A stretch of 64,000 nt of DNA from a virus: IMG/VR virus record IMGVR_UViG_3300009164_005114, positions 1-64,000 of that record. One strand, written 5' to 3'. Below the pieces are notes generated by a model, which was not told the origin of the DNA, did no database searches, and saw only the letters and a program-made list of their open reading frames with translations. How positions within the stretch are numbered: the stretch's first letter is position 1; the number at the start of each line of letters is the position of its first letter. A program made the translations under genes and the position numbers. Below, one piece after another: positions 38,653 to 61,637 of this stretch.

Positions 38653-39030
38653 TTAACAACAAGCAGTTTCTGAAATAAAACTTGGTTGAATATTAATATA
38701 TAACTCTTCTCTAATAGGTAGAATCAAATTACCTTCGTCATTCTTAATTAAAAACTGACCTACATATCGACCTGGGGTATTTGTATCCCTTGAACTAAAT
38801 TTGAAATAAATATAATATTCGGGTTCAGCACCTAAAGGTAAAATTAAATTTACTATTTCTGCAGGTGCCGACACAATTTTAGGAATTCCTGTTTCTACTT
38901 CTACCATAGTAAAAAAGATTGTTGAAACCGCCAAGTCCTCCATTAGTTGAAGATATCCTGACCTTCCGTCTTTAACTACCTGCATTTTTAATACAGGGAG
39001 TGTTGCGTTTTGTTTGATAAAGAATTCCAT
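38653..39030 (-). CDS. Small beta-rich virion-type protein
   Basis: A 125-aa protein beginning MEFFIKQNATLPVLKMQVV, which recalls the N-terminal domain of phage baseplate or fibre proteins of the BppU type (an Ig-like module attached to receptor-binding parts). Strands alternate with short loops; it ends SETACC. It follows the glycosyltransferase-fusion gene by 16 bases on the minus strand. A fibre or decoration component fits the neighbouring adhesin genes. The BppU resemblance is weak. Confidence 0.5.
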   Translation of the reverse strand: MEFFIKQNATLPVLKMQVVKDGRSGYLQLMEDLAVSTIFFTMVEVETGIPKIVSAPAEIVNLILPLGAEPEYYIYFKFSSRDTNTPGRYVGQFLIKNDEGNLILPIREELYINIQPSFISETACC

Positions 39031-39034
39031 AACA

Positions 39035-39041
39035 ATAAATA
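39035..39041 (-). promoter_or_regulatory. Late-promoter-like TATTTAT element
   Basis: ATATATTTATTGTT directly precedes the ATG at 39030 (4-base spacing). Confidence 0.42.
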
Positions 39042-39046
39042 TATTG

Positions 39047-40723
39047 TTATGACTCTTTTCTTAAACTTCTTTCGTAATGTTCAAACCTATCGTGTTCTGT
39101 TGGTGTCATAAGTAGTAAGCCAGGATATAAATTTCCTTCTTTAACTAACTGATACATATGACTCATCCATGTTTGTTCAAATGGGTGTGCCCAAGTTGTA
39201 TCTAAAAACATTTTCTTATTACCTGTTCTGGTCACAATTTGTGGCCAGTTACAATAATACACTTCACCCGTAACATAAGGTATACCTTGGAATGTTCTAA
39301 TAGAATCATAAACAGCTTTAGGTGCATTTGGGTCAATACCTTGTTCAGGTAATCTATTTTTACCTGGCCAATATTTTTCTCTAACCACTTGTGGTACATT
39401 ATACCAAGACCACTGAGTACCATTATCACCAAAGAACTCACTAAAGTTTAACTTTAAAAAATCAAAGTTTTCTTTTTTTGCAATTTGTAATGTTTTTGAA
39501 TATAAATTAGGAACATACCTATTAAACCCATTTCTACAAACATGACCTTCATTTGGATAGAAAAACATATCATCTTCAAAAAATAAATAAAAATCTAAAT
39601 CGGTCTTTTCTTCAAAATGTTCGGCAATCCATTGTCTTCCACCACAAATACCTAAATTATCTTTTTTAATGTGTTCAAATCCATATTCTTGACAAATTCT
39701 GGCGTAATCATCAAATGTGGATGTGTCGGTAGAATTATCCAATAAAAACTTTTTAGTTTTTATAATATAATCCTTATCATAAGCATTCATTGAATCAATT
39801 AATGTTTGAAATTGTTTTGGACTATTAAATGTGATGACATACAAACCAACTTTATTAACATCTAAACTATTTGTAGATTTGTTAACATTTTCTGATTTAG
39901 GTGTAAGGTTATTATTCTTCAAGTCCTCAAAAAATTTACCAACTAAACCGTTAGATTCAATTTCAAAATAATTTACCAAATCTGAATGTTTATAACACAT
40001 AATACTGAAAATTGATTCTTCAGTACCCATATACCCTTCATCTAAAGTTGATTTTAATAATCCATAATAAATTCCGTTAATATCACCAATAGTGTGTTTT
40101 GGACCACCAAAGAACCCACCTCTTGCGACTTTATTAACTTTGGCACCCGCAATTGAATTTAACTTATTATATTCAAATCCGTGAATTTCATTTTCCGCAT
40201 CGTAAGGAAAACAAACGAATGAAAATTTTGAAATGTATTTTGATAAATTATCCAAAACTTTATCATGAGTAAAATAACCTGGATGAACAGTATTAGTTAA
40301 ACCACCATCAATCCAAAACATATATTCTGAATCAAACTGGTCCATTATTTTTGCATCGTGTAGCAAAAATACTTTAGACATAACTAATGGATTATAATTT
40401 TCTAATCTACCTTGGGTTGATTCTTTTAACCATCCTGATAAATTAGCCCACTCATCATTGGTTCTAATTTTTTGTATTTTATCAAAGAATTCAGAATCTC
40501 TAAACCATGATAATGGTCTAACAATAAATTGAGTATTTGATTGGTCTCTTCTTTTAAAAACAAACTCTTTTAATTCTTCATCACCAAAAATTATTAAGTT
40601 TTCCTCAACTTGTAATAATTTTTCAAATTGGTCTAAATAATGTTGGTAAGGTCTTGACCAACCTTCTGATAGTTCTCCTCTACCAATGTCCCATATACCT
40701 GTTACTAATGTTATATTACTCAT
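39047..40723 (-). CDS. Two-domain glycosyltransferase (HtrL/WlaTC-like + GT-A)
   Basis: A 558-aa fusion. The N-terminal part (about 1-270) has the layout of HtrL/YibB/WlaTC glycosyltransferases: MFWIDGG near 135, then GGFFGGPKHTI and GTEESIFSIM. The C-terminal part (about 285-558) is a GT-A domain with LFFEDDM (the DxD-like metal site, near 382), GGRQW before it and an acceptor-side Trp-rich region. The two halves probably add two sugars in sequence. It overlaps the preceding HtrL-like gene by 8 bases, so expression is coupled. Donor and acceptor are unknown; the context suggests modification of virion fibres or host-surface glycans. Confidence 0.8.
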   Translation of the reverse strand: MSNITLVTGIWDIGRGELSEGWSRPYQHYLDQFEKLLQVEENLIIFGDEELKEFVFKRRDQSNTQFIVRPLSWFRDSEFFDKIQKIRTNDEWANLSGWLKESTQGRLENYNPLVMSKVFLLHDAKIMDQFDSEYMFWIDGGLTNTVHPGYFTHDKVLDNLSKYISKFSFVCFPYDAENEIHGFEYNKLNSIAGAKVNKVARGGFFGGPKHTIGDINGIYYGLLKSTLDEGYMGTEESIFSIMCYKHSDLVNYFEIESNGLVGKFFEDLKNNNLTPKSENVNKSTNSLDVNKVGLYVITFNSPKQFQTLIDSMNAYDKDYIIKTKKFLLDNSTDTSTFDDYARICQEYGFEHIKKDNLGICGGRQWIAEHFEEKTDLDFYLFFEDDMFFYPNEGHVCRNGFNRYVPNLYSKTLQIAKKENFDFLKLNFSEFFGDNGTQWSWYNVPQVVREKYWPGKNRLPEQGIDPNAPKAVYDSIRTFQGIPYVTGEVYYCNWPQIVTRTGNKKMFLDTTWAHPFEQTWMSHMYQLVKEGNLYPGLLLMTPTEHDRFEHYERSLRKES

Positions 40724-41603
40724 ATATTCTATTGAATTCTTCTAAAATTTTATAAAAACTTTTATTTAATGTGAACATTTCATCTGTCACTCCTGCGGGT
40801 GCATTATCTCTACACCACCAAATATCAAAATGTTTTCTTTCAAATAATTCTTTATGATTGAAATACATTAAAGTCATAATTGGTTCTTCATGGTGTAAGT
40901 TCTTCGCATCTATTATAGTTTTTTCAGCATAATCTTCAAATAAATTTACAATTTCATCCCACTTGTCTCTGTGACCTCCAAACAATCCACCAATAATATG
41001 AAGACTTCTATCATATTCTTTGTACCACTTAGGGTCTAAAGTTTGTGACCAAAAGTTTCTATCATTTTCTTTACCGAGTATTAAAAACTTATCACCAGTA
41101 TCCTCAATCATGTTATGTAAAAAATCATTATTAAACAAACTACATTCATAGTATCTTTGCTCTGGATGAGTACCACTTAAATATTTTACAGGAACTAATC
41201 CACAATGAGATAAACCCGCATCAATCCAATAATAATAGTCGTAAGATTTATCTTCATTCCACCACCAATGAAATTTAGAATATTGAATTTCAACACATCT
41301 ATCAGATTTTTTAGTTTGCTCAACATTTTTATATTCTTTAATTAAATGTTGGAATTTAGTTGTTGAAATATCAAAAATTTCAAACTTTAATTTCTCAGAT
41401 GATATTGAATGTGTTTCGTAAAAGAATTTTTTTAATGGTTCTATTTCTCTTTCAGACGTATAACATAAGAAATCTGCGTCGGTCATTTTTAAAAGAGATA
41501 ATAAACTATAACTATAGTGACCCCCTCTATTCATTCTACCACCGTATTCGGTGCCATACAAATCACTATAGATTGATGTGATAAATTTAACTTTAGTTGA
41601 CAT
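40716..41603 (-). CDS. HtrL/WlaTC-like glycosyltransferase
   Basis: A 295-aa single-domain relative of the N-terminal half of its downstream neighbour. YYWIDAGLSHCG near residue 126 corresponds to FWIDGG, and IIGGLFGGHRDKW followed by HHEEPIMTLMYF corresponds to GGFFGG...TEESIF. These are GT-A-like enzymes with an Asp motif at the donor site. It overlaps the GT25-like gene by 11 bases and the fusion gene by 8. It may transfer an outer sugar of the same glycan. Donor unknown. Confidence 0.78.
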   Translation of the reverse strand: MSTKVKFITSIYSDLYGTEYGGRMNRGGHYSYSLLSLLKMTDADFLCYTSEREIEPLKKFFYETHSISSEKLKFEIFDISTTKFQHLIKEYKNVEQTKKSDRCVEIQYSKFHWWWNEDKSYDYYYWIDAGLSHCGLVPVKYLSGTHPEQRYYECSLFNNDFLHNMIEDTGDKFLILGKENDRNFWSQTLDPKWYKEYDRSLHIIGGLFGGHRDKWDEIVNLFEDYAEKTIIDAKNLHHEEPIMTLMYFNHKELFERKHFDIWWCRDNAPAGVTDEMFTLNKSFYKILEEFNRIYE

Positions 41604-42327
41604 ATGTGAATTGATTGTGTTCTTTATTGTTTTTTAATTCTTGGGTTAATATTCCACTTAAATATTGTGGTGGAATTTTACACGGACTATATAAATTCCA
41701 ATTATAAGTTTGAGTGTAAAAATTATTGTATTGTCCTTGTGACACATCAGACCAACTACTCATCTGAGGAGCCAATGGTAAAATTGGACAATAACTTTGT
41801 TTGATTGGTAATACAAATTGATAGATGTAATCATCAATTGCGTAGTACCCTAATTTTTCAGGTATTTCCATCTCTAATACATTATCATAGATTGAACTAT
41901 GATAAATCATCATATTAGTTGCAAATATACCTCTTTCGTGTTCTTGTTTTGGGGGTAAATTTGTTATATCTAAAAACAAAGGTTGTTCTTTACTACGAAG
42001 AACAGGTCTGTTTAAAGTAGGAGAAAGATTGATAATACCATATTCAAATTCACCACTTTCAGTTTCAATTTTATTAATTAAGTCTTTTGAGTATGGTAAA
42101 AAAGTACAATCATCTTCAATAACCATCACAGAGTCGTATCCCCTCTCTTTAGCAAGTTTAATAATTCCTGTATGAGATAAAGTACATCCTCCGTGATTGT
42201 TTAAATCAACAGCTTTAAATAATTCGTAATCCCATCCCATATAGTCCATCTCTTTTTGAATATGGTCTAATCGGTCAGGTCGTCTTTCTAAATTAACGAC
42301 AAATTTGGGAATGTTGGTAATATTCAT
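41593..42327 (-). CDS. Glycosyltransferase family 25-like
   Basis: A 244-aa protein with the GT25 (LPS galactosyl/glucosyltransferase) signature: FVVNLERRPDRL (9-20), the acceptor-side GCTLSHTGIIKLA (47-59) and metal site VMVIEDDC (67-74). GT25 members act on LPS, or on collagen hydroxylysine in animals. It overlaps the upstream GlcNAc-transferase-like gene by one base (stop-start overlap), so the two are co-translated. Part of the four-gene glycosylation cassette beside the Thr/Pro-rich proteins. Confidence 0.88.
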   Translation of the reverse strand: MNITNIPKFVVNLERRPDRLDHIQKEMDYMGWDYELFKAVDLNNHGGCTLSHTGIIKLAKERGYDSVMVIEDDCTFLPYSKDLINKIETESGEFEYGIINLSPTLNRPVLRSKEQPLFLDITNLPPKQEHERGIFATNMMIYHSSIYDNVLEMEIPEKLGYYAIDDYIYQFVLPIKQSYCPILPLAPQMSSWSDVSQGQYNNFYTQTYNWNLYSPCKIPPQYLSGILTQELKNNKEHNQFTYVN

Positions 42328-43592
42328 TAACTAACGTGGTTGTGGGTTAATCTGCCTGTAATTCTATCACACCATCCTTTTGATTCTGAGTAAGGCCATA
42401 CTACCCAGTAAGAAGGTAATTCATCTGTTTGGAATTCTCTCCACACTTTACAATACTTATCAGGGTCTCTCATAAATCCTGCAATTTCATTCTTGTCTGC
42501 ATCTTTTCTGTATAAAGTTTCGTCTTTATCGTTATGGAATGCAACAACCCAAAAATCATAATCCGTTTCAGGTACTTGAGAATATCCGATATCAATACAA
42601 TGTTTAAACATCATACAGAAACTATCTTTCCATTCTTGTTCTGTCTCAAAATTATATGGGTTTGGTGGATAGTTTTTATCTAAAGTATATTTGTCAATTG
42701 CTCTTTTTTGGAATAAGATACCTGCATATTTTTCATACTCGGTTAAAGTTCTAACGGTACCAAAACCATAAGGACCATCATGACCTTCTTGAGTTTCACC
42801 ATCCATACCAAATAATTTTCTATTTGTTAAATGAGATACTCTGTTTCTTTCACCCCAACCTTTGTCATCATCCCATTGTTTTGTTCTACCTTTACGAGTG
42901 TATTCGTGGTAAACAACAGGAATATGTGGGTGGAATAAATCATAACCCCAAGTGTAAGCTCTTGCAGCAATTGAAATTTCTTCTCCGTGGAAATAATATT
43001 CAGGGTTGTGCTGAACTTCAGTTGAGAATTGTCCTAATGTAAAACAGAAGTGAGCTGAGTAGAATCTTGATGTTACAGGTTTTTTTAAATCTTTCCAACC
43101 TGGAATTGTTTCAGGTAAGAAGAATACTGCACCTTCAGGAATGAATCGGTCAAAAACCATTCTCCATGCATCAGGGGCTCTTCCTGCTGGGTCATTTTCG
43201 GGGTCAAAAGAAGGAACGTAGCCCGTAAGTAGAGGCTTCTTATACCCGTCCTTCTGTAACCCCTTTATCATTTTGATAAGGATATCGTCCCAATCCTTAA
43301 CAAATCTCATGTGAGAATCTATTTGTAGTGTATAAGTTTCACCTTTGTAAAGTTGTTGAACTTGGTGTCTCGCCCAACAAACACCTTTAGAATCTTGATA
43401 AGGAATATCTAAAATTCTAAATCTTTTGTCGTTTTTATACTCATCTAAATTATCAAAACCGTCTTCTTCACTGTATTGTCTTGCAATACCGAAAACTAAG
43501 TTATTTGGTTTTTTGGCGTTTTCCAACATGTCTTTAATTGTTGGGATTAACTGCGGGTCTCTGTATGAGGCAATTTGGATAAAAATCTTCAT
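42327..43592 (-). CDS. GlcNAc-transferase family protein (polypeptide O-GlcNAc type)
   Basis: A 421-aa protein matching the family of UDP-GlcNAc:polypeptide N-acetylglucosaminyltransferases (Dictyostelium Gnt1/Skp1-type; Pfam 'GlcNAc'). IFIQIASYRDPQLIPTI is at 3-19, VCWARHQVQQLY at 71-82 and metal-site QIDSHMRF at 90-97, with a conserved EYYFHGEEISIAARAYTWG region near 202. These enzymes attach GlcNAc to hydroxyl residues of proteins. It is the gene directly downstream of the two Thr/Pro-rich proteins, separated from them only by a terminator, which makes those proteins attractive substrates. Family assignment is strong; substrate is inferred. Confidence 0.85.
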   Translation of the reverse strand: MKIFIQIASYRDPQLIPTIKDMLENAKKPNNLVFGIARQYSEEDGFDNLDEYKNDKRFRILDIPYQDSKGVCWARHQVQQLYKGETYTLQIDSHMRFVKDWDDILIKMIKGLQKDGYKKPLLTGYVPSFDPENDPAGRAPDAWRMVFDRFIPEGAVFFLPETIPGWKDLKKPVTSRFYSAHFCFTLGQFSTEVQHNPEYYFHGEEISIAARAYTWGYDLFHPHIPVVYHEYTRKGRTKQWDDDKGWGERNRVSHLTNRKLFGMDGETQEGHDGPYGFGTVRTLTEYEKYAGILFQKRAIDKYTLDKNYPPNPYNFETEQEWKDSFCMMFKHCIDIGYSQVPETDYDFWVVAFHNDKDETLYRKDADKNEIAGFMRDPDKYCKVWREFQTDELPSYWVVWPYSESKGWCDRITGRLTHNHVS

Positions 43593-43610
43593 GTATGTTA
43601 TATTTTACCC

Positions 43611-43649
43611 TAAAAATAAAAAACCCTCCACGAAGGTGAAGGGTTTTTT
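43611..43649 (-). terminator. Terminator after the 366-aa Thr/Pro-rich protein gene
   Basis: Arms AAAAAACCCT (43618-43627) and AGGGTTTTTT (43640-43649) with an inner CC/GG pair form a hairpin, followed on the minus strand by TTTATTTTTAGGG. It separates the fibre genes from the glycosyltransferase cassette. Confidence 0.8.
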
Positions 43650-43673
43650 ACATATATTAATTTTCTTTTTTTA

Positions 43674-44774
43674 TTAACATCCGTTAGGGTCAGAAGCGGT
43701 AATTAAACCAGCTCCACCACTAACTAAATACCATGCAGTACCGTTAGAATAATAACCATCTGCCGCCACAATTGATAATCCTGTGTTAACATATAATGTC
43801 TCACCAATGTTAGGTCCAGGTCCTTGAGATGCTGGTACATAAAGTGTGTTAGGTGCTGAACTAAAGTCGGTACATGCTAAATTTGATGTTGAACCTGTTC
43901 CCAGAATATAAGTATAATATCCGAATGTTGCGGTAGGTGTTGTAGTTACTGTAGGTGTGTTAGTTGGAGTTGAAGTATGAGTTGGTGTTGGAGTTTGTGT
44001 TGGTAATAATGAACATAATGAGAATCCTCCTGTTTCATTACCATTTGAATTTAATTGAACTACTTGTCCTGAGTTTGAATAGCAACCTGTCATATTAACA
44101 GTTACTGGTCCGTATACTAAATTAAAGAATTGTGTATTTTCATCAAAGTTTGCAAGTTCACCATAAATTGTTATTGATGGTGATGCGTTACATGCATCAT
44201 TACTTGTTAAACCTGTTGAAACTGAGAACGAAAATCTTGCTCTTGTTGGTGTAGGTGTGTTAGTTGGTGTTTCAGTTTGAGTCGGAGTTGGTGTAACTGC
44301 CGCAGTTCCTGTTTGTGTTGGAGTCGCAGTTAATGTTGTTGTGGTTGTTGGTGTTTGAGTTGGTGTTTCCGTATTAGTTGGAGTTGGTGTATTAGTTGGA
44401 GTTGCAGTTAATGTAGTTGTCGTTGTTGGTGTTTGAGTTGGTGTCTCCGTATTAGTTGTAGTTGGAGTTGGTGTAGGTGTTGTTCCAGGCGTTTGAGTAT
44501 TTGTTGGTGTTAAAGTTGGTGTTGGAGTTGCGGTCTTTGTCGGAGTTGGGGTACTAGTTGGATAATACATTGGATATGCTCCATTATTAACCAATACCAC
44601 ACTATTAACAAATGACGGTGCAATTGAATAAGTGTTGTTTATTAACCAAATATTTTTTGTTTGGTTTGGTAATAACTCAACTTGGTATTCCCACATTGAA
44701 TCGTCACATCTTCTATAATTGAAGTTTACAACGGTTGAACCCGTGTTTGTTAAGGTATATTTGCTACATGCCAT
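43674..44774 (-). CDS. Thr/Pro-rich mucin-like fibre protein (366 aa)
   Basis: Modular. Residues 1-71 are an N-terminal beta domain that may attach it to the virion. Residues 72-178 are an almost pure Thr/Pro tract ([16 protein letters not shown] style). Module A (179-258, RFSFSVSTG to FSLCSLL) follows, then a second short tract (259-283) and module B (284-366, [11 protein letters not shown] to SDPNGC). Modules A and B recur nearly unchanged in the next gene. No signal peptide and no catalytic motif are present. The tracts would form extended stalks densely supplied with O-glycosylation sites. A virion fibre or adhesin is the likeliest role. Terminator-bounded on its 3' side. Confidence 0.85.
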
Positions 44775-44793
44775 CTTGATTTCTTTTTATAAT

Positions 44794-44800
44794 ATAAATA
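44794..44800 (-). promoter_or_regulatory. Late-promoter-like TATTTAT element
   Basis: TAGTATTTATATTA, 19 bases before the ATG at 44774. Confidence 0.48.
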
Positions 44801-44858
44801 CTAAGTATTTGTTTATTAGATTCAATATTTCTAATTTTTTATTTTTTTAATTTTGTTC

Positions 44859-46610
44859 TTAGCACCCATTAGGGTCAGAACTTCCAATTTGACCTAAACC
44901 ACCACTAACTAAGTACCATGCAGTACCATTAGAATAGTAACCATCCGCGGCTGGTGTTGTTAATGAAGTATTAACATATAAGTACTCGCCAACATTAGGA
45001 CCAGTCCCTTGAGATACTGGTGCATAAAGAGTATTAGGGGCGGAACTAAAGTCAGCACACGCGGTGTTTGTTGTTAATCCCGTACCTAAAATATATGTGT
45101 AATACCCAAATGTTGCTGTAGGTGTTGTTGTTGGTGTAGGTGTTGGAGTTTGAGTTAAAAGTGAACATAATGAGAATACTCCTACATAGTTACCGTTAGA
45201 GTCTAACTCAACTACTTGTCCTGAATTTTTATAATAACCTGTCATATTCACCGTCACTGGTCCATAAAGAGAATTAAAGAATTGCGTATTTTCGTCAAAG
45301 TTTACAAATTCACCATAAATTGTTATTGAAGGTGACGCATCACACGCATCGTATTGAGTGGTCCCTGTTGAAACTGAGAACGAGAATCTTGTTCTTGTTG
45401 GTGTTGGAGTTTGAGTTGGTGTTTCGGTATTAGTTGGTGTTTGAGTTTGAGTTGGTGTTTTGGTATTAGTTGGTGTTTGAGTTGGTGTTTGAGTTGGTGT
45501 TTCCGTGTTAGTTTGTGTAGGTGTTTGAGTTTGAGTCTCAGTATTTGTAGGTGTTTGTGTAGGTGTTTGAGTTTGAGTCTCAGTATTTGTAGGTGTTTGT
45601 GTAGGTGTTTGAGTTTGAGTCTCAGTATTTGTAGGTGTTTGCGTTTGTGTTGCAGTATTACTTGGGGTTTGGGTAGGTGTAGGTGTTTTTGTTGAAGTAT
45701 TAGTTGGTGTTGCAGTTGGAGTTGGTAAAGGACATCCTCCTAATAATACAATATTACCATCACCATATGCAATTTGAATTGTTTCCGCACAATAAATTTG
45801 AGTTGTAAATACATCTAAGAAGAAATCAAATTCAAACCCATCACAATCAATACCAACAAAAGTTGTTTGATTTTGAGTTCCACCAAACAATAAATAAGTT
45901 TTACATATTGAATTAGTAGGTGTTTGAGTTTGAGTTGGTGTTAATGTCGGAGTATTAGTTGAAGTTTCTGTGTTAGTTGGTGTTAAAGTTTGTGTAGGTG
46001 TTTGAGTTGGAGTTTCCGCAGCAGTCCCTGTATTTGTAGGTGTATTTGTTGGCGTTTCCGTGTTAGTTGGTGTAGTTGTTGGGGTTGAGGTGTTAGTCGT
46101 GGTATTACTAGGTGTGTTTGTTGGAGTTTCCGTGTTAGTTGGAGTTGCTGTAGGAGTTAATCCAATAGTAACAGATGGGGTTGGTGTCATTGTTTCGGTT
46201 GGAGTTTGAGTTGGGGTTTCAGTTGTTGTTGAGGTTGGAGTAACTGTTGAGGTTACTGTTGCGGTTGGTGTTACTGTTGCAGTTGACGTAGGAGTTAATG
46301 TAGGAGTTTCCGTAGGTGTTGGCGTTAATCCTTCTGTTTGAGTTGGAGTTTGAGTTGGAGTTGAAGTGTTGGTTGGTGTATTTGTTTGAGTTGGCGTAGG
46401 ACTAGGTGTTGGACCTGGAACATTTAATGTGTAGGTATAACCATAAGTTGGTACATATAAATCATAGATACCGTAATAATAACTAGATATATAGTTAAAC
46501 GGAATTATTTGCGTTCCCAAATCAATAGTACCTCCCGTGTCTGGAAAATACGTAACTTGTGAGGTTTGCCCACTTAAATTATCACTTTCAATTCTTATTC
46601 CTAATGCCAT
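44859..46610 (-). CDS. Thr/Pro-rich mucin-like fibre protein (583 aa), paralogue
   Basis: Residues 1-65 are a Tyr-rich N-terminal domain. Thr/Pro tracts follow at 66-233 and 295-407, separated by a Cys-containing domain (234-294, ICKTYLLFGG to GGCPLP). Module A is at 408-485, a short tract at 486-500 and module B at 501-583, the last two modules clearly paralogous to those of the downstream gene. About half of the protein is Thr/Pro repeat, with Gln, Asn and Glu as spacers. It probably forms a long stalk with globular knobs on the virion. Tract length can vary by slippage (see the 42-base repeat). Function inferred from architecture. Confidence 0.85.
   Translation of the reverse strand: MALGIRIESDNLSGQTSQVTYFPDTGGTIDLGTQIIPFNYISSYYYGIYDLYVPTYGYTYTLNVPGPTPSPTPTQTNTPTNTSTPTQTPTQTEGLTPTPTETPTLTPTSTATVTPTATVTSTVTPTSTTTETPTQTPTETMTPTPSVTIGLTPTATPTNTETPTNTPSNTTTNTSTPTTTPTNTETPTNTPTNTGTAAETPTQTPTQTLTPTNTETSTNTPTLTPTQTQTPTNSICKTYLLFGGTQNQTTFVGIDCDGFEFDFFLDVFTTQIYCAETIQIAYGDGNIVLLGGCPLPTPTATPTNTSTKTPTPTQTPSNTATQTQTPTNTETQTQTPTQTPTNTETQTQTPTQTPTNTETQTQTPTQTNTETPTQTPTQTPTNTKTPTQTQTPTNTETPTQTPTPTRTRFSFSVSTGTTQYDACDASPSITIYGEFVNFDENTQFFNSLYGPVTVNMTGYYKNSGQVVELDSNGNYVGVFSLCSLLTQTPTPTPTTTPTATFGYYTYILGTGLTTNTACADFSSAPNTLYAPVSQGTGPNVGEYLYVNTSLTTPAADGYYSNGTAWYLVSGGLGQIGSSDPNGC
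45501..45650 (-). repeat. In-frame 42-base tandem repeat within the Thr/Pro tract
   Basis: Encodes residues 321-370 of the 583-aa protein. The 14-residue unit TQTQTPTQTPTNTE occurs twice in full (331-358), flanked by shortened copies. The DNA copies are almost identical, suggesting recent expansion by slippage or recombination. Confidence 0.85.
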
Positions 46611-46614
46611 GTCA

Positions 46615-46621
46615 ATAAATA
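46615..46621 (-). promoter_or_regulatory. Late-promoter-like TATTTAT element
   Basis: AAGTATTTATTGAC directly precedes the ATG at 46610 (4-base spacing). Transcripts starting from it would be practically leaderless. Confidence 0.5.
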
Positions 46622-46643
46622 CTTAATTTTTTTGTTTTATTCT

Positions 46644-48650
46644 TTAAACTATACGACCAATTCCATTTATTACTACATATCTCAAATCGTTTTGAGGTAT
46701 TAAAATATATTCCAAATCATCATCAGGTATTAATAAATAAACCAAATCTTCATCTGGAATTACTACATATGTCAAATCATTTTGAGGAACAATAATCGCA
46801 CAATCAGGGCAAATAGGATTTAATAATCCATATTTATTTTTTAATAATTTAAAGTTGTGTTTAATTTGTGATGCATTGAGAGGTTCTGTATACATTCTAA
46901 ACGCACTAATGTCACCAATCATACTACCCCCAAAAATTTCTTCTAATCTAACATGAGTTGTAAGACCCGAATATTCTGTGTGGTCTAAATCGTATGTCGT
47001 TAAACACTCAGGGTCTTGTTGGTAAACAATCTCGTTTATATTTGGAGGACATCCTCCTGAGAATGTTAAATTATCGTGAAGTCCTTGAGTACCTCCACCT
47101 ATTGAAATGTTATATCCAACGCCAATTTGTTTTTCTTTTGGAGTGTTAAGTAACCTTGGGATAATTTCTTCAAAATTTTCTGTGACCATGAACAATTTAC
47201 CATTAACATAGAATTTTAATGTTCCCATTCTATATTTTTGCTCTTCAGTCCACATGTCAGTAAATGTTACAACCTCAGTTGTTGCTGGGTCATAACTTGG
47301 GTCATGAGTTATTGGAGGTTCAATTAAACTAACACTTCTACCTTCAATAGTTGCAAAATAAACATCTTTAACTAAAAGACCTAATCCACCTTTATCATAT
47401 AAATCACAAGTATCTAACCATTCATATCTTTGGAAAACCGCATCAATTTGAACCCAATGTTCCAAATTAATATATGGTGTTAATTTACATTCATCAAAAA
47501 TCCCTCTTGTTGAACACCATTCAGTTACTGAAGTCCCTGTTACATATGTTAAACCTGTAAGACAAGTTCCAGTGTGTTCACACCCACCAGTAATTCTATA
47601 TGTCTTAACACATAATCTTGGGTTTCCACTATCACCACTAAGTCTTAATGATAAACCATTTGAAACTCCATCATACAATGGGTCTGTTTCAGGGTATTGC
47701 GCCTTTGAATCACAATCACAAGGACAACCACAAGTACAATGCGTTATTGTGCCACCCGATGGTTGGTAAACTTGTAAACATTCTGATGATGTGTTTGCCG
47801 AACTTGCACAACCACAAGTATGCATACAAGTTAATCCTGACGTAACTCTTGTATATCCAGTATCTTGTATTGGACTTCCGTCGGCGTAATGGTAATATTT
47901 GTTTTCAGCTCTTGCCCCCATATAAAAGAAGGTACCTTTATTATCAGGATATCTTTCATTCAATCCCACAGAAGTATCACCAGTCCACCTATATCTTAAC
48001 ATGAACTCGGTTGTCCAACCTAAAGGAACTCTTTGAGGAAATACTTGATAATCATAACCTGGTACTTTGTAGAATCCTTGGAAGAACCCTCCATTTAATT
48101 TCGCAACATACCCAATATTTCCACCAACATTTTGGTAAGATAAGTCGTAATTATAGGAATTATCATTCCATAATCTATTTTCAGTTGTTGTAAAACCTGT
48201 GATTGGGTGGAGTTTCATTCTCCTATCGTATTTGTATCTACTAAATCTATCAGATACATTTTCATATAAACCAGTAGTAATTTCAATAGTTTCTCCTGAC
48301 ATATGTTGAACCAAACCATTATCCATACCTGTTAATCCAATGTCACATAACTCTGTAGTTTTTACACAAAAATTTGGATTGATGTCTTCAGGGTTCCAAT
48401 AGTTTTCAGAAACAATTGTTTGATAATCAAAAGAACACGCAGATATTTGGCATAATGTTGTTCCAGTGCTATTAAATTCAAATTTAAATGGCATTCTATT
48501 TCCATCTTCCTCACCTATTAATAGTGGAGAAAATATAACTTCTTGGTCATAGTCTTTTTCATCCGACGCTAAACAAATATCGGTTACTTCGTTGACTGGT
48601 TTAAGACCCCAACGTCTAAAATTATATTGATTAATATTCTGATATGCCAT
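46644..48650 (-). CDS. Large fibre/adhesin-like virion protein with Cys-rich insert
   Basis: A 668-aa protein. The central part has a lectin-like jellyroll appearance: HWVQIDAVFQRYEW, LKFYVNGKLFMVTENF and SIGGGTQGLHDNLTF near 410-545 resemble the LamG/ConA-like strand order. A Cys-rich stretch (about 275-325, containing HCTCGCPCDCDSK) is unusual for a phage protein and could bind metal or be disulfide-linked. The end (617-668) holds four tandem 10-residue repeats. It lies upstream of the Thr/Pro-rich genes on the same strand. A receptor-binding or adhesin function is inferred from composition and neighbours. Confidence 0.72.
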   Translation of the reverse strand: MAYQNINQYNFRRWGLKPVNEVTDICLASDEKDYDQEVIFSPLLIGEEDGNRMPFKFEFNSTGTTLCQISACSFDYQTIVSENYWNPEDINPNFCVKTTELCDIGLTGMDNGLVQHMSGETIEITTGLYENVSDRFSRYKYDRRMKLHPITGFTTTENRLWNDNSYNYDLSYQNVGGNIGYVAKLNGGFFQGFYKVPGYDYQVFPQRVPLGWTTEFMLRYRWTGDTSVGLNERYPDNKGTFFYMGARAENKYYHYADGSPIQDTGYTRVTSGLTCMHTCGCASSANTSSECLQVYQPSGGTITHCTCGCPCDCDSKAQYPETDPLYDGVSNGLSLRLSGDSGNPRLCVKTYRITGGCEHTGTCLTGLTYVTGTSVTEWCSTRGIFDECKLTPYINLEHWVQIDAVFQRYEWLDTCDLYDKGGLGLLVKDVYFATIEGRSVSLIEPPITHDPSYDPATTEVVTFTDMWTEEQKYRMGTLKFYVNGKLFMVTENFEEIIPRLLNTPKEKQIGVGYNISIGGGTQGLHDNLTFSGGCPPNINEIVYQQDPECLTTYDLDHTEYSGLTTHVRLEEIFGGSMIGDISAFRMYTEPLNASQIKHNFKLLKNKYGLLNPICPDCAIIVPQNDLTYVVIPDEDLVYLLIPDDDLEYILIPQNDLRYVVINGIGRIV
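46650..46802 (-). repeat. Four tandem 10-residue repeats (30-base unit) at the C-terminus
   Basis: Unit P-x-x-D-L-x-Y-[VLI]-[VL]-I, as in PQNDLTYVVI, PDEDLVYLLI, PDDDLEYILI and PQNDLRYVVI. It alternates a DL turn with a hydrophobic strand, as in short beta-solenoid or trimer-forming tails. Confidence 0.85.
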
Positions 48651-51467: not shown

Positions 51468-52682
51468 ATGTCAAAAATTAAAATCTTAGTAGTACCATCC
51501 GACAGAACTGGTGTCGGAAAATTTAGGTCAGTCGACCCTCACGTATTCTTACAAAACTTGTATGGAGACGAATTCCATGTAGATATAGTTTATGAAGTTC
51601 CTTATGAGGATATGAAATTTTGGTCTCAGTATCAAATTGTTTCATATCATAGAAGTATTGGTCCTGATTTTGATAAATCACATGAACTTATTCAAAAATT
51701 AAATTCATTAGGAATTATCACTGTTTGTGATATTGATGATTATTGGATGCCAGGAAGAGAGCACCCAATTCATGATATTATTAGAGTAAATAAGATTAAT
51801 GAAAAAATTGTTGCAAGTCTTAGAGTTTCACAATATGTGACAACTACAACAAATATTTTTGCAGATGAAATCAGAAAAATAAATAAAAATGTTTCTGTTT
51901 TTCCAAATGCAATTAACCCTAATGAACCACAATTTAAAGAACCTACTTTAGAATCAGATAGATTGAGGATTGGTTGGCTAGGGGGTTCTTCTCACTTACA
52001 CGACATTCAGTTATTAGACCAATCTTTTGGTAGAATGACATCCGCTAAAGATAAGGTACAATTTGTATTGTGTGGATTTGATACAAGAGGTAGTGTTACC
52101 GAAATTAATCAACAAACAGGTGAACACAAAAGAAGAGATATTTTACCTCATGAAACTGTTTGGGCTCAATACGAAAAAATATTTACACAAAATTATTCTA
52201 TAGTTTCTGAAGATTATAAAAAACATCTATTAAATTATAATCAATTACCTTATGAAAATGAGGCGAATGAGGCTTATATTAGAGTATGGACAAAACCTGT
52301 TACATCTTACGCTAAGAATTATTCAAAATTTGACGTATCTTTGTCTCCAATCAAAAACAATATGTTTAATAGAATGAAGTCTCAATTAAAAGTTATTGAA
52401 GCTGGATTCTATAAGAAAGCCCTTATTGCTTCAGATTTGGGGCCATATACCATAGATTTAAAACACTGTTTAAATCATGGTAATTTTGTTGATGGTAACG
52501 CACTTTTAGTTGATGAAAAAAGAAATCATTCTGATTGGGCGAAATTTATTGACAAACTTATTAAAAACCCAAATATGGCAAAAGACATGGGTGAAAGATT
52601 ATATGAAACCGTTAAAGACACATATGACTTAAATATTGTAACAAAAAGTAGAGCAGAATTTTACAAATCTTTAATTAAATAA
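51468..52682 (+). CDS. GT-B glycosyltransferase (GT4-like)
   Basis: A 404-aa protein with a GT-B layout. The N-terminal domain starts KIKILVVPSDRTGVGKFRS; the linker and C-terminal domain contain LRIGWLGGSSHLHD near 165 and VQFVLCGF. The donor-binding region is KSQLKVIEAGFYKKALIASD near 305-325, where GT4 enzymes carry the E-x7-E-like motif. GT4 enzymes transfer sugars with retention, often from GDP- or UDP-sugars. It opens the long plus-strand sugar operon. Acceptor unknown. Confidence 0.82.
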   Translation: MSKIKILVVPSDRTGVGKFRSVDPHVFLQNLYGDEFHVDIVYEVPYEDMKFWSQYQIVSYHRSIGPDFDKSHELIQKLNSLGIITVCDIDDYWMPGREHPIHDIIRVNKINEKIVASLRVSQYVTTTTNIFADEIRKINKNVSVFPNAINPNEPQFKEPTLESDRLRIGWLGGSSHLHDIQLLDQSFGRMTSAKDKVQFVLCGFDTRGSVTEINQQTGEHKRRDILPHETVWAQYEKIFTQNYSIVSEDYKKHLLNYNQLPYENEANEAYIRVWTKPVTSYAKNYSKFDVSLSPIKNNMFNRMKSQLKVIEAGFYKKALIASDLGPYTIDLKHCLNHGNFVDGNALLVDEKRNHSDWAKFIDKLIKNPNMAKDMGERLYETVKDTYDLNIVTKSRAEFYKSLIK

Positions 52683-52685
52683 CAA

Positions 52686-53387
52686 ATGATAAACATACCA
52701 TTAACCAAAATTTTATTCTTGGATATTGAAACTGTGGGTATTCAACCTGATTGGGAGTCTCTTGAGTCTAATAGACCTGAGTTGGCATTCCAATTTAAAA
52801 ATTACCACGATTGGTTTCAAAAAAGATTTCCTGAGGATGCAGATAAACCTGTAGGAGATATGTTTGTAAACCGAGCAGCATTAGTTCCTGAATTTGCAAG
52901 AATAGCATGTGTTAGCGTTGCCTTTGTTACAGATAAAGGTGAAACTAAAATGCAATCTTTTAGTGACCCTGATGAGAAAAAATTATTACAAGATGTTCAA
53001 AAATTATTGTACCGAGTTGGGGAGTTGGGATTCTTTTTATGTGGTCATAATGTTAAAGGGTTTGATATCCCTATGATGGCAAAAAGAATGATTATGAATG
53101 GAATTCTTCCACCAAAAATATTACCAGGTCATGATACTAAACCATGGGAAATTAAAGCTCTTGATACTAAAGAACTTTGGCAATATGGTGGTTACGGGTC
53201 AATCGCATCATTAGAATTAATGTGCGTTTGTTTAGGTGTTGAATCTTCTAAAAACATGGAAGTAACAGGTAATAAAGTTCACGAAGCATTTTGGGTTAAA
53301 AAAGATATTAAAGGTATTGTTGAATATTGTGAAAAAGATGTATCTGTTTTAATTGATGTAATAAATAAACTATTAAAATTAAAATAA
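52686..53387 (+). CDS. 3'-5' exonuclease, DEDDy (PolB-like)
   Basis: A 233-aa stand-alone proofreading-type exonuclease. D13 and E15 lie in FLDIETVGI, D127 in HNVKGFDIPMM, and Y214 and D218 in YCEKDV, giving a full DEDDy set. It matches the PolB-like predicted exonuclease group. It may process DNA ends in recombination or repair. It lies 3 bases after the glycosyltransferase and overlaps the dUTPase by one base (TAATG). These two DNA-metabolism genes are embedded in a sugar operon. Confidence 0.9.
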   Translation: MINIPLTKILFLDIETVGIQPDWESLESNRPELAFQFKNYHDWFQKRFPEDADKPVGDMFVNRAALVPEFARIACVSVAFVTDKGETKMQSFSDPDEKKLLQDVQKLLYRVGELGFFLCGHNVKGFDIPMMAKRMIMNGILPPKILPGHDTKPWEIKALDTKELWQYGGYGSIASLELMCVCLGVESSKNMEVTGNKVHEAFWVKKDIKGIVEYCEKDVSVLIDVINKLLKLK

Positions 53388-53980
53388 TGGATAAGATTTA
53401 CAAAGAAATTGAAAGACAATTTGATAAGATTAAAGCTCAAGCAGGTATTGAACCTGATGAGGAATATCAAAAAGAATTAGAAGAAGCGCTTGGTTTAGAT
53501 TTAGATGAAATTGAAAAATTTATGTACGACTCGGCCAGAACAAGAACTGTTAAAATAGAGACTGTTCATAAAGACGCAGTATTCCCAAAATACGCATACC
53601 CAACCGATTCAGGATTTGATTTACATTCAACTAATGATTTAGAAGTAGGTCCGTTTGGGAGAGTTTTAGTTCCAACAGGAATTAAAGTTTCTTTTGAAGA
53701 AGGATATGAAATTCAAGTTAGACCTAAAAGTGGTTTGGCAATTAAACAAGGTTTAACTGTTTTAAACACACCAGGAACTGTAGACCAAGGATACACAGGT
53801 GAAATACAAGTTATTGTCTTCAACACAAACAATTACGCAGTTACAATTCCAAAAGGAATGAAAGTTGGGCAAGCTGTTTTATGTCCTGTGGTTAATGGTA
53901 AGTTTGTTAATTTTGAACAGGTAAATAGTATTGAAAATAAAGACCGAGGAAATAATGGATTTGGTAGTACAGGAATTTAA
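53387..53980 (+). CDS. dut: dUTPase with N-terminal extension
   Basis: Hydrolyses dUTP to dUMP and PPi, keeping uracil out of DNA and feeding dTMP synthesis. The five trimeric dUTPase motifs are present: I AYPTDSGFDL (70-79), II RPKSGLA (112-118), III NTPGTVDQGYTGEI with catalytic Asp133, IV IPKGMKVGQAVL (154-165) and V RGNNGFGSTG (187-196). A leader of about 50 residues, acidic and helical (YQKELEEALGLDLDEIEKF), precedes motif I and is absent from typical about 150-aa dUTPases. It may be a partner-binding helix. Confidence 0.95.
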   Translation: MDKIYKEIERQFDKIKAQAGIEPDEEYQKELEEALGLDLDEIEKFMYDSARTRTVKIETVHKDAVFPKYAYPTDSGFDLHSTNDLEVGPFGRVLVPTGIKVSFEEGYEIQVRPKSGLAIKQGLTVLNTPGTVDQGYTGEIQVIVFNTNNYAVTIPKGMKVGQAVLCPVVNGKFVNFEQVNSIENKDRGNNGFGSTGI

Positions 53981-53990
53981 AAAATAAATA

Positions 53991-55631
53991 ATGATTACAG
54001 TAGGATATTCAACAAGAGAACATAACCCAAAATTTATAGAATACTTAAAAAAAAGTTCAGGGTTTAAAAAAATAGAAGTTATTGAAAAAATTAATAACGG
54101 AGAAAAATCTTTAGCAGAAGTTTATAATGAAATACTTTCAGAGTCAAAAACTGACATAGTTGTATTATGTCATGACGACATTTACTTTGATACATCAAGT
54201 TGGTATCACAAAATAAAGTCTCATTTTGATAAAAGTGATTACGGTATTTTAGGAGTTGCGGGTACAACCCATATGTCAGAAACTGGTAGATGGTGGGAAA
54301 CTAATCGTAGAAAAAACATGATTGGTATTGTTAATCACGAAAGTGGTGGAAAAAAATGGACATCAAAATACTCCGAAGATTTAAATAAATCTATTAAGGA
54401 AACCGTTATTGTTGATGGTTTGTTTATCGCATTAAGTAAATCAAGAATCAAAACTAATTTTTTGGAAGAGTTTAAAGGGTTTCACTTTTATGATATCGCA
54501 TTTTGTTTTGAAAATTACTTACAAGGGGTTAAAGTTGGTGTTATAACAAATATTAGAATTACTCATAAATCTATAGGACAAACAAATGACCAATGGGAAG
54601 AAAATAGAGAATTGTTTGTTAAAAAATATGGTGAAAATTTACCATCAAAAATTCCATTTGACCCAAATAAAAGAATTAAAGTTTTACTATCTTGTCTTTT
54701 CTTTAGAGGATTTACAGGTTCTGAATTATATGTTTTTGAACTTGCTAAAAGTTTAATTAAATTAAATTGTAGTGTAACCATTTTATCTCAAATTGGAGGA
54801 CCATTAACTGACATGGCAAAAAAATTGGGTATTAAATGTGTGTCATTTGAAAACGCGCCAGGTTTTAAACTTGGCGATGGTCAATGGGGTATGAACACCC
54901 CTGAAGGGTTTAAGCCATCAACACCAAATGCTTTGTATAAAGTTTCTGAAGTTGATTATGATATTGTCCACATCCAACACAAACCAGTTACTGAAAGAAT
55001 TTTAAACATGTATCCTGAATTGGATAAAATTTGTACTATTCATTCTGAGGTAATGTCAAAAGAACTTGAAAATCCAATTCTTAACGATACAATAAAAAAA
55101 TATATCGCAATTCGTCCTGAGATTAAATCTCATATGATTGAAAATTTTCAAATTCCTGAAGAAATGATTGAGGTCATTTACAATCCAGTTGATAATGAAA
55201 AATTTAAATCTAAAACTATACCAACTGAAAACTATGTGTTATTTGTTGGTACTATAGATTATTTAAGAAAAGAAGCAATTTTAGATTTAATTGAATACAC
55301 AAGAGAAATTGGAAAAGAGTTATGGTTAGTAGGTGAAAATAATGGAAATTATTTAGAAAATATTTTACTTGAGGACCATGTTAAACATTTCCCATCAACT
55401 TGGAACATTGAGGATTTTATAACTAAATCTTACGAAACTGCGGGTATTCAATTAGGTAGAACAACTATTGAAAGTTGGTTGTGTAATAAACCAAGTTGGA
55501 TTTATAAGGTAAATTCAAATGGATTTATTTTATCAAAAGAAAAACATGAACCCCCAACCGATATTGAGAAATATTATACCATGAATGTTGCTCAACAAAT
55601 AAGAAATGAATATGTTAAAATATTATCATAA
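53991..55631 (+). CDS. Two-domain glycosyltransferase (GT2-like + GT-B)
   Basis: A 546-aa fusion. The N-terminal about 220 residues are GT-A-like: GYSTREHNPKFIEYLKK, then SLAEVYNEIL and the metal site VVLCHDDIYFDT (57-68), as in family-2-like enzymes. From about 226 a GT-B domain begins (RIKVLLSCLFFRGFTGSELY) with VLFVGTIDYLRKEAI and ETAGIQLGRTTIESWLCN at the donor site. Two linked sugar additions are likely. Its stop overlaps the next ATG by one base. No Lys/Arg-rich membrane segment is present. Confidence 0.82.
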   Translation: MITVGYSTREHNPKFIEYLKKSSGFKKIEVIEKINNGEKSLAEVYNEILSESKTDIVVLCHDDIYFDTSSWYHKIKSHFDKSDYGILGVAGTTHMSETGRWWETNRRKNMIGIVNHESGGKKWTSKYSEDLNKSIKETVIVDGLFIALSKSRIKTNFLEEFKGFHFYDIAFCFENYLQGVKVGVITNIRITHKSIGQTNDQWEENRELFVKKYGENLPSKIPFDPNKRIKVLLSCLFFRGFTGSELYVFELAKSLIKLNCSVTILSQIGGPLTDMAKKLGIKCVSFENAPGFKLGDGQWGMNTPEGFKPSTPNALYKVSEVDYDIVHIQHKPVTERILNMYPELDKICTIHSEVMSKELENPILNDTIKKYIAIRPEIKSHMIENFQIPEEMIEVIYNPVDNEKFKSKTIPTENYVLFVGTIDYLRKEAILDLIEYTREIGKELWLVGENNGNYLENILLEDHVKHFPSTWNIEDFITKSYETAGIQLGRTTIESWLCNKPSWIYKVNSNGFILSKEKHEPPTDIEKYYTMNVAQQIRNEYVKILS

Positions 55632-56788
55632 TGAAAATAGGAATAATTGGTGCGAATGATTTAAGTGTGTCTTTTGGATTATTATGTGAAAAAAAAGGTC
55701 ACACCGTTATTGTTGCGGATTCAGATGAAAACTATATTTTTAATTTAAATCAAAAAATTTGTTTAACTAATGAACCATTAGTTCAATCTATGTTATTTGA
55801 TACCACAAAATTTAGTGGTACCACAAATCATTTAGATTTAATTAAAAATTCTGATTTAATTTTTGTTTTTGTGACAACACCATCAAATGTTAATGGTAGT
55901 TATGACACAACTAAAGTTTTTGAATTTGTTGCTGAATTTTATACAGCATCATCATTAGACATACCTCTTTATGATAAAAAATTAATAATAAGTTCTGTTG
56001 TTAATCCTGGTGATGTTGACCAAATACAACAAAGGTTAAGTATGTTTAACGTACAAGTTGCATATAATCCTTTATTCACAGTTGAAGGTGAGATGGTTAA
56101 AAATATTGAGGAGTCTGACATAGTTTTAATTGGTAGTGAACATCAAGAACTTTCAAATACTTTAACTTACTTACATACTAAAATTAAAACAGTTCCCGTT
56201 AACACTTACGTAATGTCCCCAAAAGCGTCTGAAATAACTAAATTATCTATTAATTGTTTTTTGGCATCAAAAATTAGTTACGCAAATATGATAGGTGAAA
56301 TTATGAGTAAATCAGGAATTGAAGAAGAAACTAATATTGTGTTAACAGCCATTGGTGGGGATTCCAGAATTGGTAAAAAATTAATGAAATATGGTTTTGG
56401 TTTTGGAGGACCTTTAATTCCTAAAGATAATAGAGCATTACAATTTTATTCAAAATCAATTGACGCAAATTCTGAGTTACTTTTAAATGTAGAAACATTT
56501 AATAAATCTCATTCAGAATTTATTAAAAATTATTATATACAAGGAAACCCAAATAAAGAAGTACCATTTGTGTTAAACCACATTACCCATAAAAAAGGAA
56601 GTGTAACATTAGATGAATCACAACAATTTCAATTATGTGTAGATTTACTAATAGAAGGATATTATGTGAATGTTATTGAAATTTCAGAGATTGCAAATAA
56701 ATTAAATTCTTTGTCCGAATCATACGATGGTAGATTAAGATTTTACAAACAAGGGACTAAACCCGAAGGTATTTTAATTAATTTATAA
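55631..56788 (+). CDS. UDP-sugar dehydrogenase family protein lacking the catalytic Cys
   Basis: The 385-aa protein follows the UDP-glucose/GDP-mannose 6-dehydrogenase plan. A Rossmann start (MKIGIIGANDLSVSFG) is followed by FVFVTTPSNVNGSYDT, NPLFTVEGE (the catalytic loop, usually NPEFLREG) and EITKLSINCFLASKISYAN with K204 and N208 conserved. In the active-site loop, GFGFGG is followed by PLIPKD (255-266), where the family has GGSCFPKD, so the catalytic Cys is replaced (residue 262 is Leu). The Glu of NPE is Leu148. It may therefore be a non-oxidising or binding-only relative, or act on another substrate. The C-terminal domain (about 300-385) is divergent. Confidence 0.8.
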   Translation: MKIGIIGANDLSVSFGLLCEKKGHTVIVADSDENYIFNLNQKICLTNEPLVQSMLFDTTKFSGTTNHLDLIKNSDLIFVFVTTPSNVNGSYDTTKVFEFVAEFYTASSLDIPLYDKKLIISSVVNPGDVDQIQQRLSMFNVQVAYNPLFTVEGEMVKNIEESDIVLIGSEHQELSNTLTYLHTKIKTVPVNTYVMSPKASEITKLSINCFLASKISYANMIGEIMSKSGIEEETNIVLTAIGGDSRIGKKLMKYGFGFGGPLIPKDNRALQFYSKSIDANSELLLNVETFNKSHSEFIKNYYIQGNPNKEVPFVLNHITHKKGSVTLDESQQFQLCVDLLIEGYYVNVIEISEIANKLNSLSESYDGRLRFYKQGTKPEGILINL

Positions 56789-57498
56789 TGATAGTATTAA
56801 CTACAACATATAATTGTGAAAAATTTGTAGAAAAATCTTTATTGACGATTATGTCTCAAAGGTTTAAAGATTTTAAGTGTTATATTACTGATGACATGTC
56901 AACTGATAAAACCGTTGATGTTATAAAAAAAACTATAAGTGGTGATGATAGATTTGTTTTAATTGAAAACAAACAAAAGATGTATCAGCCAGGTAACTAT
57001 GACCAAATAATTCGTGGGATGAATATTCATGATAATGAAATTTGTGTTGAAATTGATGGAGATGATTGGTTACCAAATTCAAATGTTTTATCATTTATTG
57101 ATGAAATATATAAAAATGAAAATGTTTGGATGACTAGTGGTTCGTTCAAATATCACGATGGGAGGCCAGGTTTTGCAAATCCCCCAAAAAATTTTACAAC
57201 TGTTAGAAACCAAACTTTTACTTTATCTCATTTAAGAACTTGGAAATCTTGGTTATGGAAAAAAATTAAAGAAGATGATTTAAAAGATGTTTCAGGAAAT
57301 TACTGGAGTGTCGCAGGTGATTTATCATTTATGTTTCCAATGTTAGAAATGTCAGGAGAAGAACACTTCAAATTTATTCCCGAAGTGTTATATGTCTATA
57401 ACGAATCAAATCCATTAAACGACCATAAAGTTAACATGAATAAAGTGGTATCAACTGTTAATATTATTAGAAATAAACCTGAATATAACAGAATATAA
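56788..57498 (+). CDS. Family 2 glycosyltransferase
   Basis: A 236-aa GT-A enzyme. The opening is VLTTTYNCEKFVEKSLLTIM, then CYITDDMSTDKTVDVI (the nucleotide site). CVEIDGDDWLP (about 91-101) is the metal-binding DxD. The segment WSVAGDLSFMFPMLEM follows as the acceptor-side element. It overlaps the preceding gene by one base. It probably adds one residue of the same oligosaccharide made by its neighbours. Donor unknown. Confidence 0.9.
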   Translation: MIVLTTTYNCEKFVEKSLLTIMSQRFKDFKCYITDDMSTDKTVDVIKKTISGDDRFVLIENKQKMYQPGNYDQIIRGMNIHDNEICVEIDGDDWLPNSNVLSFIDEIYKNENVWMTSGSFKYHDGRPGFANPPKNFTTVRNQTFTLSHLRTWKSWLWKKIKEDDLKDVSGNYWSVAGDLSFMFPMLEMSGEEHFKFIPEVLYVYNESNPLNDHKVNMNKVVSTVNIIRNKPEYNRI

Positions 57499-58188: not shown

Positions 58189-58189
58189 A

Positions 58190-60832: not shown

Positions 60833-60833
60833 C

Positions 60834-61634: not shown

Positions 61635-61637
61635 AAT

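Follow-up and report, generated by a model that had tools for sequence, protein, structure and literature searches.

The stretch analysed here (the window) comprises 64,000 nucleotides, positions 1 to 64,000 of the IMG/VR virus record IMGVR_UViG_3300009164_005114. On its minus strand lies a run of eight genes, in which two proteins with threonine (Thr)/proline (Pro) tracts, TP366 and TP583, are followed by a PF11397 (GT60-type) glycosyltransferase and further transferase genes. We consider it likely that this freshwater phage encodes a module for mucin-type O-glycosylation of its own virion. The initial annotation had proposed that the phage glycosylates its own Thr/Pro proteins. That proposal, although still an inference, is well supported by the predicted fold of the enzyme, by a specific and recurrent linkage of enzyme and tract genes with controls, and by the virion glycoproteins reported for phage XacN1.

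Thr/Pro tract proteins and the PF11397 enzyme

All eight open reading frames (ORFs) from 38653 to 48650 were open at the coordinates given here. TP366 (43674-44774, minus strand) contains Thr-x-Thr/Pro tracts between small globular domains, and TP583 (44859-46610, minus strand) contains longer ones; both are proposed glycan acceptors. The two proteins are paralogues, as the initial annotation described, and share 71% identity over 189 aa of the C-terminal region. The tracts span residues 70-180 (51% Thr, 21% Pro) and 256-288 in TP366, and residues 67-235, 294-410 (each 47% Thr, 18% Pro), and 483-505 in TP583. Their Thr content of 43-51% compares with 7.6% across all ORFs, and the best 40-residue Thr+Pro windows reached 80% and 72.5%, versus 52.5% in the runner-up ORF. 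In the three long tracts, Thr occupies about every second residue, with one-parity counts of 51 vs 6, 77 vs 3, and 55 vs 0 (51/57, 77/80, and 55/55). Long, repetitive, and rich in Thr and Pro, these tracts are mucin-like in composition.

The sole PHROG matched by the two proteins was phrog_15511, of unknown function (E 3e-6 for TP366 and 5e-14 for TP583). Nothing else of this kind was present among the 77 retained ORFs of the 82,855-base record, and a tblastn search of phage records with TP366, low-complexity filter on, returned no match. Because all four Thr codons are in use in the tracts and the listed DNA arrays in the tract genes are mostly imperfect, the tracts are more probably a product of selection for the amino-acid pattern than of DNA slippage alone. 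One DNA array, a 42-base unit in 3.1 copies with 100% match (45511-45641), is a clean repeat and freshly duplicated.

The GlcNAc (N-acetylglucosamine)-transferase-family protein annotated downstream on the same strand (42327-43592, minus) was confirmed by its matches to PF11397, "Glycosyltransferase (GlcNAc)" (E 1.3e-65; 222.6 bits, cut-off 21), and phrog_24687 (E 9.8e-168). We take PF11397 to correspond to CAZy family GT60. Residues D92-S93-H94, a DxH-type motif, and H229 were invariant in 36/36 aligned GT60 sequences, and are presumably the counterparts of the metal ligands of polypeptide GalNAc (N-acetylgalactosamine)-transferases. An AlphaFold model built from this 36-sequence alignment (predicted local distance difference test score (pLDDT) 91.5; predicted template modelling score (pTM) 0.87) showed a GT-A catalytic fold of the polypeptide GalNAc-transferase (GT27) type. 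Polypeptide GalNAc-transferases filled ranks 1-32 in Foldseek (best E 8e-10) and ranks 1-29 in VIA-align (Z 22.4-19.2; next entry 16.8), with 256-278 residues aligned at a root-mean-square deviation of 3.2-3.8; most of the top structural alignments span only residues 1 to about 330. Thus, the predicted fold is nearest to that of the initiators of mucin-type O-glycosylation in animals. Whereas the GT27 enzymes are the nearest solved folds, identity to them is 11-14%, and phmmer against PDB chains gave only three irrelevant matches (E 0.6-0.7). Since no GT27 homology was detectable at the sequence level, we did not file the enzyme as GT27.

GT60 holds the Skp1 hydroxyproline GlcNAc-transferase (Gnt1) and the Trypanosoma cruzi polypeptide alpha-GlcNAc-transferase (PMC6939170). 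The latter transfers alpha-GlcNAc onto Thr to start mucin O-glycans, needs Mn2+, and was assayed on KPPTTTTTTTTKPP (PMC3769586). The protist enzymes (T. cruzi TcOGNT-2, Dictyostelium Gnt2, and Skp1 Gnt1) resemble the phage protein in belonging to the same Pfam family, PF11397, and the T. cruzi acceptors are Thr-rich mucins. Moreover, the T. cruzi protein gp72 contains a tract, PTVTPTPPLTPTPTPEVTPTP..., that is very similar to the phage tracts, in a Thr/Pro domain assumed by the authors to hold phosphoglycosylation sites (PMC3630849). The systems differ in location and gene arrangement: Dictyostelium Gnt2 is a Golgi membrane enzyme (PMC3769586), whereas the GT60 protein of the window is encoded by a phage, shows no evident signal or membrane segment, and has its gene next to the acceptor genes.

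A close phage precedent is XacN1, for which at least two glycoproteins were reported from proteomics and the phage's own ORF328 and ORF334 were suggested as the transferases (PMC5852040). ORF334 is a homologue of the window enzyme (46% identical), and HtrL-type genes and a giant Pro/Thr/Ser-tract protein are also encoded nearby. Unlike our proposal, the available part of that report names neither the glycoproteins, a Thr/Pro acceptor, nor mucin-type chemistry. Mycobacteriophage virions are likewise glycosylated (Freeman et al. 2023, as cited in PMC12619734), although at the C-termini of capsid and tail-tube proteins rather than on Thr/Pro stalks. The particle of chlorovirus PBCV-1 is likewise glycosylated at least in part by enzymes of the virus itself (cited in PMC5852040), but this is a eukaryotic virus and the acceptor is the major capsid protein. 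In open-access literature searched for phage mucins or for Thr/Pro-tract phage proteins with glycosyltransferases, the titles and abstract openings listed (up to 20 per search) contained no description of the tract-GT60 pairing, in line with the initial annotation, which knew of none.

Linkage in viruses and bacteria

Three viral scans with GT60 queries, one of which took the best 80 of 333 relatives, gave 167 loci together with XacN1 and RAS14, and these formed 14 clusters at 70% identity. Clusters were used for counting because near-identical contigs inflate locus counts; several contigs were entered twice (L101/L223, L102/L277, L099/L283, and L088/L284). Tracts were defined by a cut-off of our own choice (60% Thr+Pro+Ser, with at least 6 Thr and at least 6 Pro per 40 residues). 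In 9 of the 14 clusters, one or more members had a tract ORF within the DNA fetched. In the cluster of the window, it lay within 1.5 kb in 77/82 loci, 76 of them upstream on the same strand; of the five misses, three had no more than 2 upstream bases and the other two were one contig (L099/L283). The second cluster contained a tract ORF in 47/62 loci, in 43 within 1.5 kb (32 downstream, 10 upstream, and 1 on the opposite strand). Tracts of the jumbo clusters were farther off on the opposite strand or outside the view.

Among random viral loci, the same cut-off found a tract in 0/120, and a cut-off of 55% in 1/120 (weak). For loci anchored on GT11, the phage's fucosyltransferase, and devoid of GT60, the count was 2/70, and the two positive loci (L585 and L586) look like one neighbourhood. 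Four loci (L510, L511, L542, and L587) were dropped from this control as their contigs, by name, also hold a GT60 locus; with them, none having a tract, the count is 2/74. Conversely, GT11-anchored loci also holding GT60 had a tract in 6/6 cases (three distinct neighbourhoods). Fisher tests gave 7e-11 for 9/14 vs 0/120, 3e-7 for 9/14 vs 2/70, and 2e-4 for 3/3 vs 2/70. The GT11 comparison is the fairer one, because random loci (mean length about 8.0 kb) are shorter than GT11 loci (about 15.4 kb) and GT60 loci (up to 25 kb). Two simple readings were set back by these controls: a plain linker with chance adjacency, by both the random and GT11 loci, and a generic association with glycosyltransferases, by the GT11-anchored loci, which lacked tracts unless GT60 was present.

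In the reverse direction, GT60 was detected in 6/120 loci selected by a Thr-Pro DNA pattern (L103-L222; 98/120 with an actual tract ORF) vs 0/120 random loci (p 0.015). Tracts without GT60 nearby may be served by other enzymes, or be bare. Twelve records with the tract absent from, or far in, the locus were searched whole. Pro-Thr motifs occurred in 9/12, including 6 of the 9 without a tract in the fetched DNA, and the reversed-motif control gave two matches, in one record. The GT60-tract linkage is specific, recurrent, and wider than the initial annotation had supposed.

The arrangement varies with the lineage: the tract may share the strand of GT60, on either its upstream or its downstream side, or lie on the opposite one. 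The order in the window is tract-GT60-GT25-HtrL, while XacN1 and RAS14 have GT60-carbamoyltransferase-HtrL facing giant Pro/Thr/Ser-tract proteins. GT60 is flanked by two tract genes in L133/L231, and in L102, L248, and L257 tract and GT60 genes are neighbours with HtrL genes outside the view. When 89 GT60 sequences were placed on a tree, the 30 rows labelled as having a tract within 3 kb fell on both sides of the midpoint root. Because this label required at least 12-13 changes vs a shuffled mean of 25, the tract association is partly inherited and partly regained or lost. The window enzyme grouped with three sequences from Bacteroidia/Saprospiraceae metagenome-assembled genomes (MAGs) (L431-L433; support 99/99), a weak hint of a Bacteroidota host or of exchange; those contigs might themselves be viral. 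A carbamoyltransferase gene adjoins GT60 in XacN1 (annotated as such; L083:13409-15706) and in Jiulongibacter (L438:9235-10803; NodU-like, below the equivalog cut-off), which suggests carbamoylated glycans.

A bacterial genome scan yielded 177 GT60 relatives, and 79 loci were kept from the best 80. A tract ORF was present in 19/79, a count that has no matched baseline and is not a statistic. Two bacteria, Jiulongibacter sediminis and a Saprospiraceae MAG, have GT60 together with an HtrL-type gene, divergent to a gene for a Thr/Pro protein with a twin-arginine-like N-terminus (by eye). One of 22 tract proteins scanned had a Por secretion C-terminal domain and is most likely, judging from the sequences, the Saprospiraceae one. 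Genome-wide PTPTPT motifs were counted in five bacteria. In J. sediminis (G013), whose contig was matched to the tract gene by coordinates, 3/4 lay inside the tract gene beside GT60 (reversed control 0). G017 had 5/7 at GT60 (reversed 5), in a stretch near the protein C-terminus that may be an ordinary linker. G015 showed 5 scattered matches (reversed 0), G014 a single match (reversed 0) with a tract at GT60 devoid of PTPTPT, and G016 an uninformative 18 vs 20 reversed. Some Bacteroidota pair GT60 with exported Thr/Pro proteins. An enzyme that modifies its acceptor in the cytoplasm, ahead of export, would be compatible with the phage setting as well as the bacterial one.

Neighbouring genes and the proposed virion link

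From the GT60 gene onwards, each transferase gene runs into the next, with overlaps of 1, 11, and 8 bases, in agreement with the four overlapping genes of the initial annotation. The GT25-like gene placed after the GlcNAc-transferase was likewise recovered (41593-42327, minus strand; Glyco_transf_25, E 5.7e-12); it was not found in some relatives. Of the two HtrL-like genes, that at 39047-40723 (minus) held up, matching HtrL_YibB at E 5.1e-21 (75.9 bits, cut-off 24.1), under the YibB equivalog cut-offs and with its C-terminal half lacking an assignment. Two phage groups and some bacterial loci retain this gene alongside the cassette. The other (40716-41603, minus) is a weakly HtrL-like protein that gave no Pfam, PHROG, or NCBIfam match; a one-to-one comparison with 39047-40723 showed weak similarity (29% over 49 aa, E 0.001). 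It is kept with the cassette in many relatives, and homologues also occur in XacN1 (31%) and RAS14 (26%). A 125-aa protein of unknown function (38653-39030, minus) follows the cassette in most relatives. In a close relative (L116:870-4384), the stretch from GT60 to HtrL/YibB holds other genes in place of GT25 and the HtrL-like gene, as if the extension enzymes had been swapped while GT60 stayed. In another relative with the transferase cassette (L119:1764-2516), the Thr/Pro pattern lies in another frame, through either an assembly error or a broken tract gene.

An intrinsic-terminator-like hairpin (43623-43637, minus) separates TP366 from the transferase cassette. By eye, it was present in 23 of 24 relatives inspected (exception L027), with compensating stem changes; a strict script found it in just four relatives. 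Scans were at about chance level for terminators (5 vs 5.1 in shuffles) and below shuffles for promoters (38 sites vs 48.3), and this terminator alone was used from them because it is conserved in relatives. Since it parts TP366 from GT60, tract and transferase genes are probably separate transcripts, regulated apart. The adjacency of tracts and enzyme in the initial annotation thus holds for the shared strand and probably not for a single transcription unit.

The first gene of the run encodes p668 (46644-48650, minus), which has no Pfam or PHROG match; many of its homologues carry a C-terminal Thr/Pro tract. Near that tract position, the C-terminus of p668 (46668-46780) contains 10-residue LIPDDDLEY-like repeats with a 30-base unit. 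The T4-type late motif TATAAATA lies 37 bases upstream of p668. Among 28 genes examined, an exact copy precedes p668 only, and none was found before TP583 or TP366. One protein of the record matches phrog_234 (E 6e-4) and may be a late sigma factor. The 22 tract proteins scanned matched four PHROG "virion structural protein" families, the matching proteins being those of other lineages. One tract protein of another lineage matches a crAss muzzle domain, and in L248 a tract protein is encoded in the same run as a lower-baseplate-like protein. Judged from these gene-level hints, TP366 and TP583 are likely virion fibres, as annotated initially; the late-promoter-like site and the families matched in other lineages favour this, while the window proteins themselves gave no such match.

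A second glycan region (51468-63340, plus strand; continuing to 66272 of the record) is a possible supplier or extender. It encodes GT1-like, GT2-, GT10-, and GT11-type transferases, UDP-galactopyranose mutase, a UDP-glucose/GDP-mannose dehydrogenase, and a GDP-fucose-synthase-like epimerase; beyond the window follow a DegT-type aminotransferase (by eye) and GDP-mannose 4,6-dehydratase. Fucose and galactofuranose might come from this region, in which two genes (52686-53980) resemble nucleotide-metabolism genes by eye. The thymidylate synthase family, PF00303, was detected in 4/8 related records and in none of the other four, including that of the window, all of which may be fragments. This family also holds hydroxymethylases, and PF00303 does not separate the two. 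The HtrL/YibB-type protein 39047-40723 weakly matched phrog_842 (beta-glucosyl-HMC-alpha-glucosyltransferase; E 0.007).

Proposed mechanism and alternatives

In the mechanism we propose, p668, TP583, and TP366 would be late-expressed fibre or appendage proteins located in the virion, and the Thr-x-Thr/Pro tracts would form extended acceptor stalks. The separately transcribed, cytoplasmic PF11397 enzyme would transfer the first N-acetylhexosamine (HexNAc) to tract threonines, probably as alpha-GlcNAc from UDP-GlcNAc. The GT25 and HtrL-type enzymes would extend the glycan, possibly with the fucose/galactofuranose genes at 51-63 kb, resulting in rigid, heavily glycosylated stalks. The glycan might bind host lectins, shield epitopes, or tune adsorption, as suggested in the initial annotation. 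The same module is also present in other phage lineages and, in some bacteria, with exported Thr/Pro proteins.

Several observations weigh against this mechanism. Glycosylation of the Thr/Pro proteins in the window is a prediction from genes, tract and transferase genes are probably transcribed apart, and the AlphaFold model of p668 (pLDDT 26.5) lends no support for a fibre structure. Five of the 14 viral clusters, all jumbo-group singletons, had no tract ORF in the fetched flanks, and a distance of about 9 kb separates GT60 from the tract, on the opposite strand, in XacN1 and RAS14. Likewise, 114 of the 120 Thr-Pro-pattern loci had no GT60 in the DNA in view, 60/79 bacterial GT60 loci lacked a tract ORF, and the PTPTPT counts back the link in two of five bacterial genomes, one doubtfully. 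In addition, the GT60 member Gnt1 acts on just one hydroxyproline of Skp1 (PMC6939170).

The pattern loci with tracts or pattern and no GT60 in view would suit another explanation, in which the tracts serve merely as flexible linkers, with the transferases being morons that alter host surface glycans (lipopolysaccharide (LPS) or capsule), co-located since tail-fibre regions collect host-interaction genes. The Pfam description of GT25 as "LPS biosynthesis protein" and the second glycan region close by point the same way. We nevertheless regard this as unlikely: the GT11 loci bear tracts in 2/70 cases without GT60 vs 6/6 with it, the pairing recurs in different arrangements and beside exported bacterial tract proteins, and the nearest solved folds are polypeptide transferases. 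Alternatively, GT60 might glycosylate a phage protein elsewhere than on the tracts, such as at one site on fibre domains or the capsid, in the manner of Gnt1 on Skp1. The single-site chemistry of Gnt1 and the existence of GT60 loci without tracts speak for this option, which we judge improbable, as the tract proteins across lineages share little else (mean column identity 11% in 22 proteins). Among these 22, 10 matched phrog_15511, which in the window proteins covers tract sequence. The weak phrog_842 match and the thymidylate synthase family gene in half of the related records would favour a cassette that glycosylates modified phage DNA bases, as in T-even phages. We judge this very improbable, for that gene was not detected in the other half (possible fragments), and the GT60-Thr/Pro link and the bacterial occurrence would be left unexplained.

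Beyond this phage, we give roughly even chances to a general prokaryotic form of mucin-type O-glycosylation, in which a cytoplasmic GT60 enzyme with the fold of polypeptide GalNAc-transferases acts on Thr-x-Thr/Pro tracts and is used by some bacteria on exported surface proteins and by several phage lineages on mucin-like virion fibres. Glycosylated phage virions are known in a few cases, but it is rare that sequence alone reveals the enzyme as well as its acceptor. In the present case, one particular enzyme family is accompanied by one particular acceptor composition in distant phages and also in bacteria, so that the reason for the Thr/Pro tracts of many environmental phages is now open to direct experiment. 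The pairing suggests a bacterial counterpart of mucin-type O-glycosylation and bears on phage encounters with lectins and mucus, and such a compact set of enzyme and tract could be used to produce mucin-like polymers in bacterial cells.

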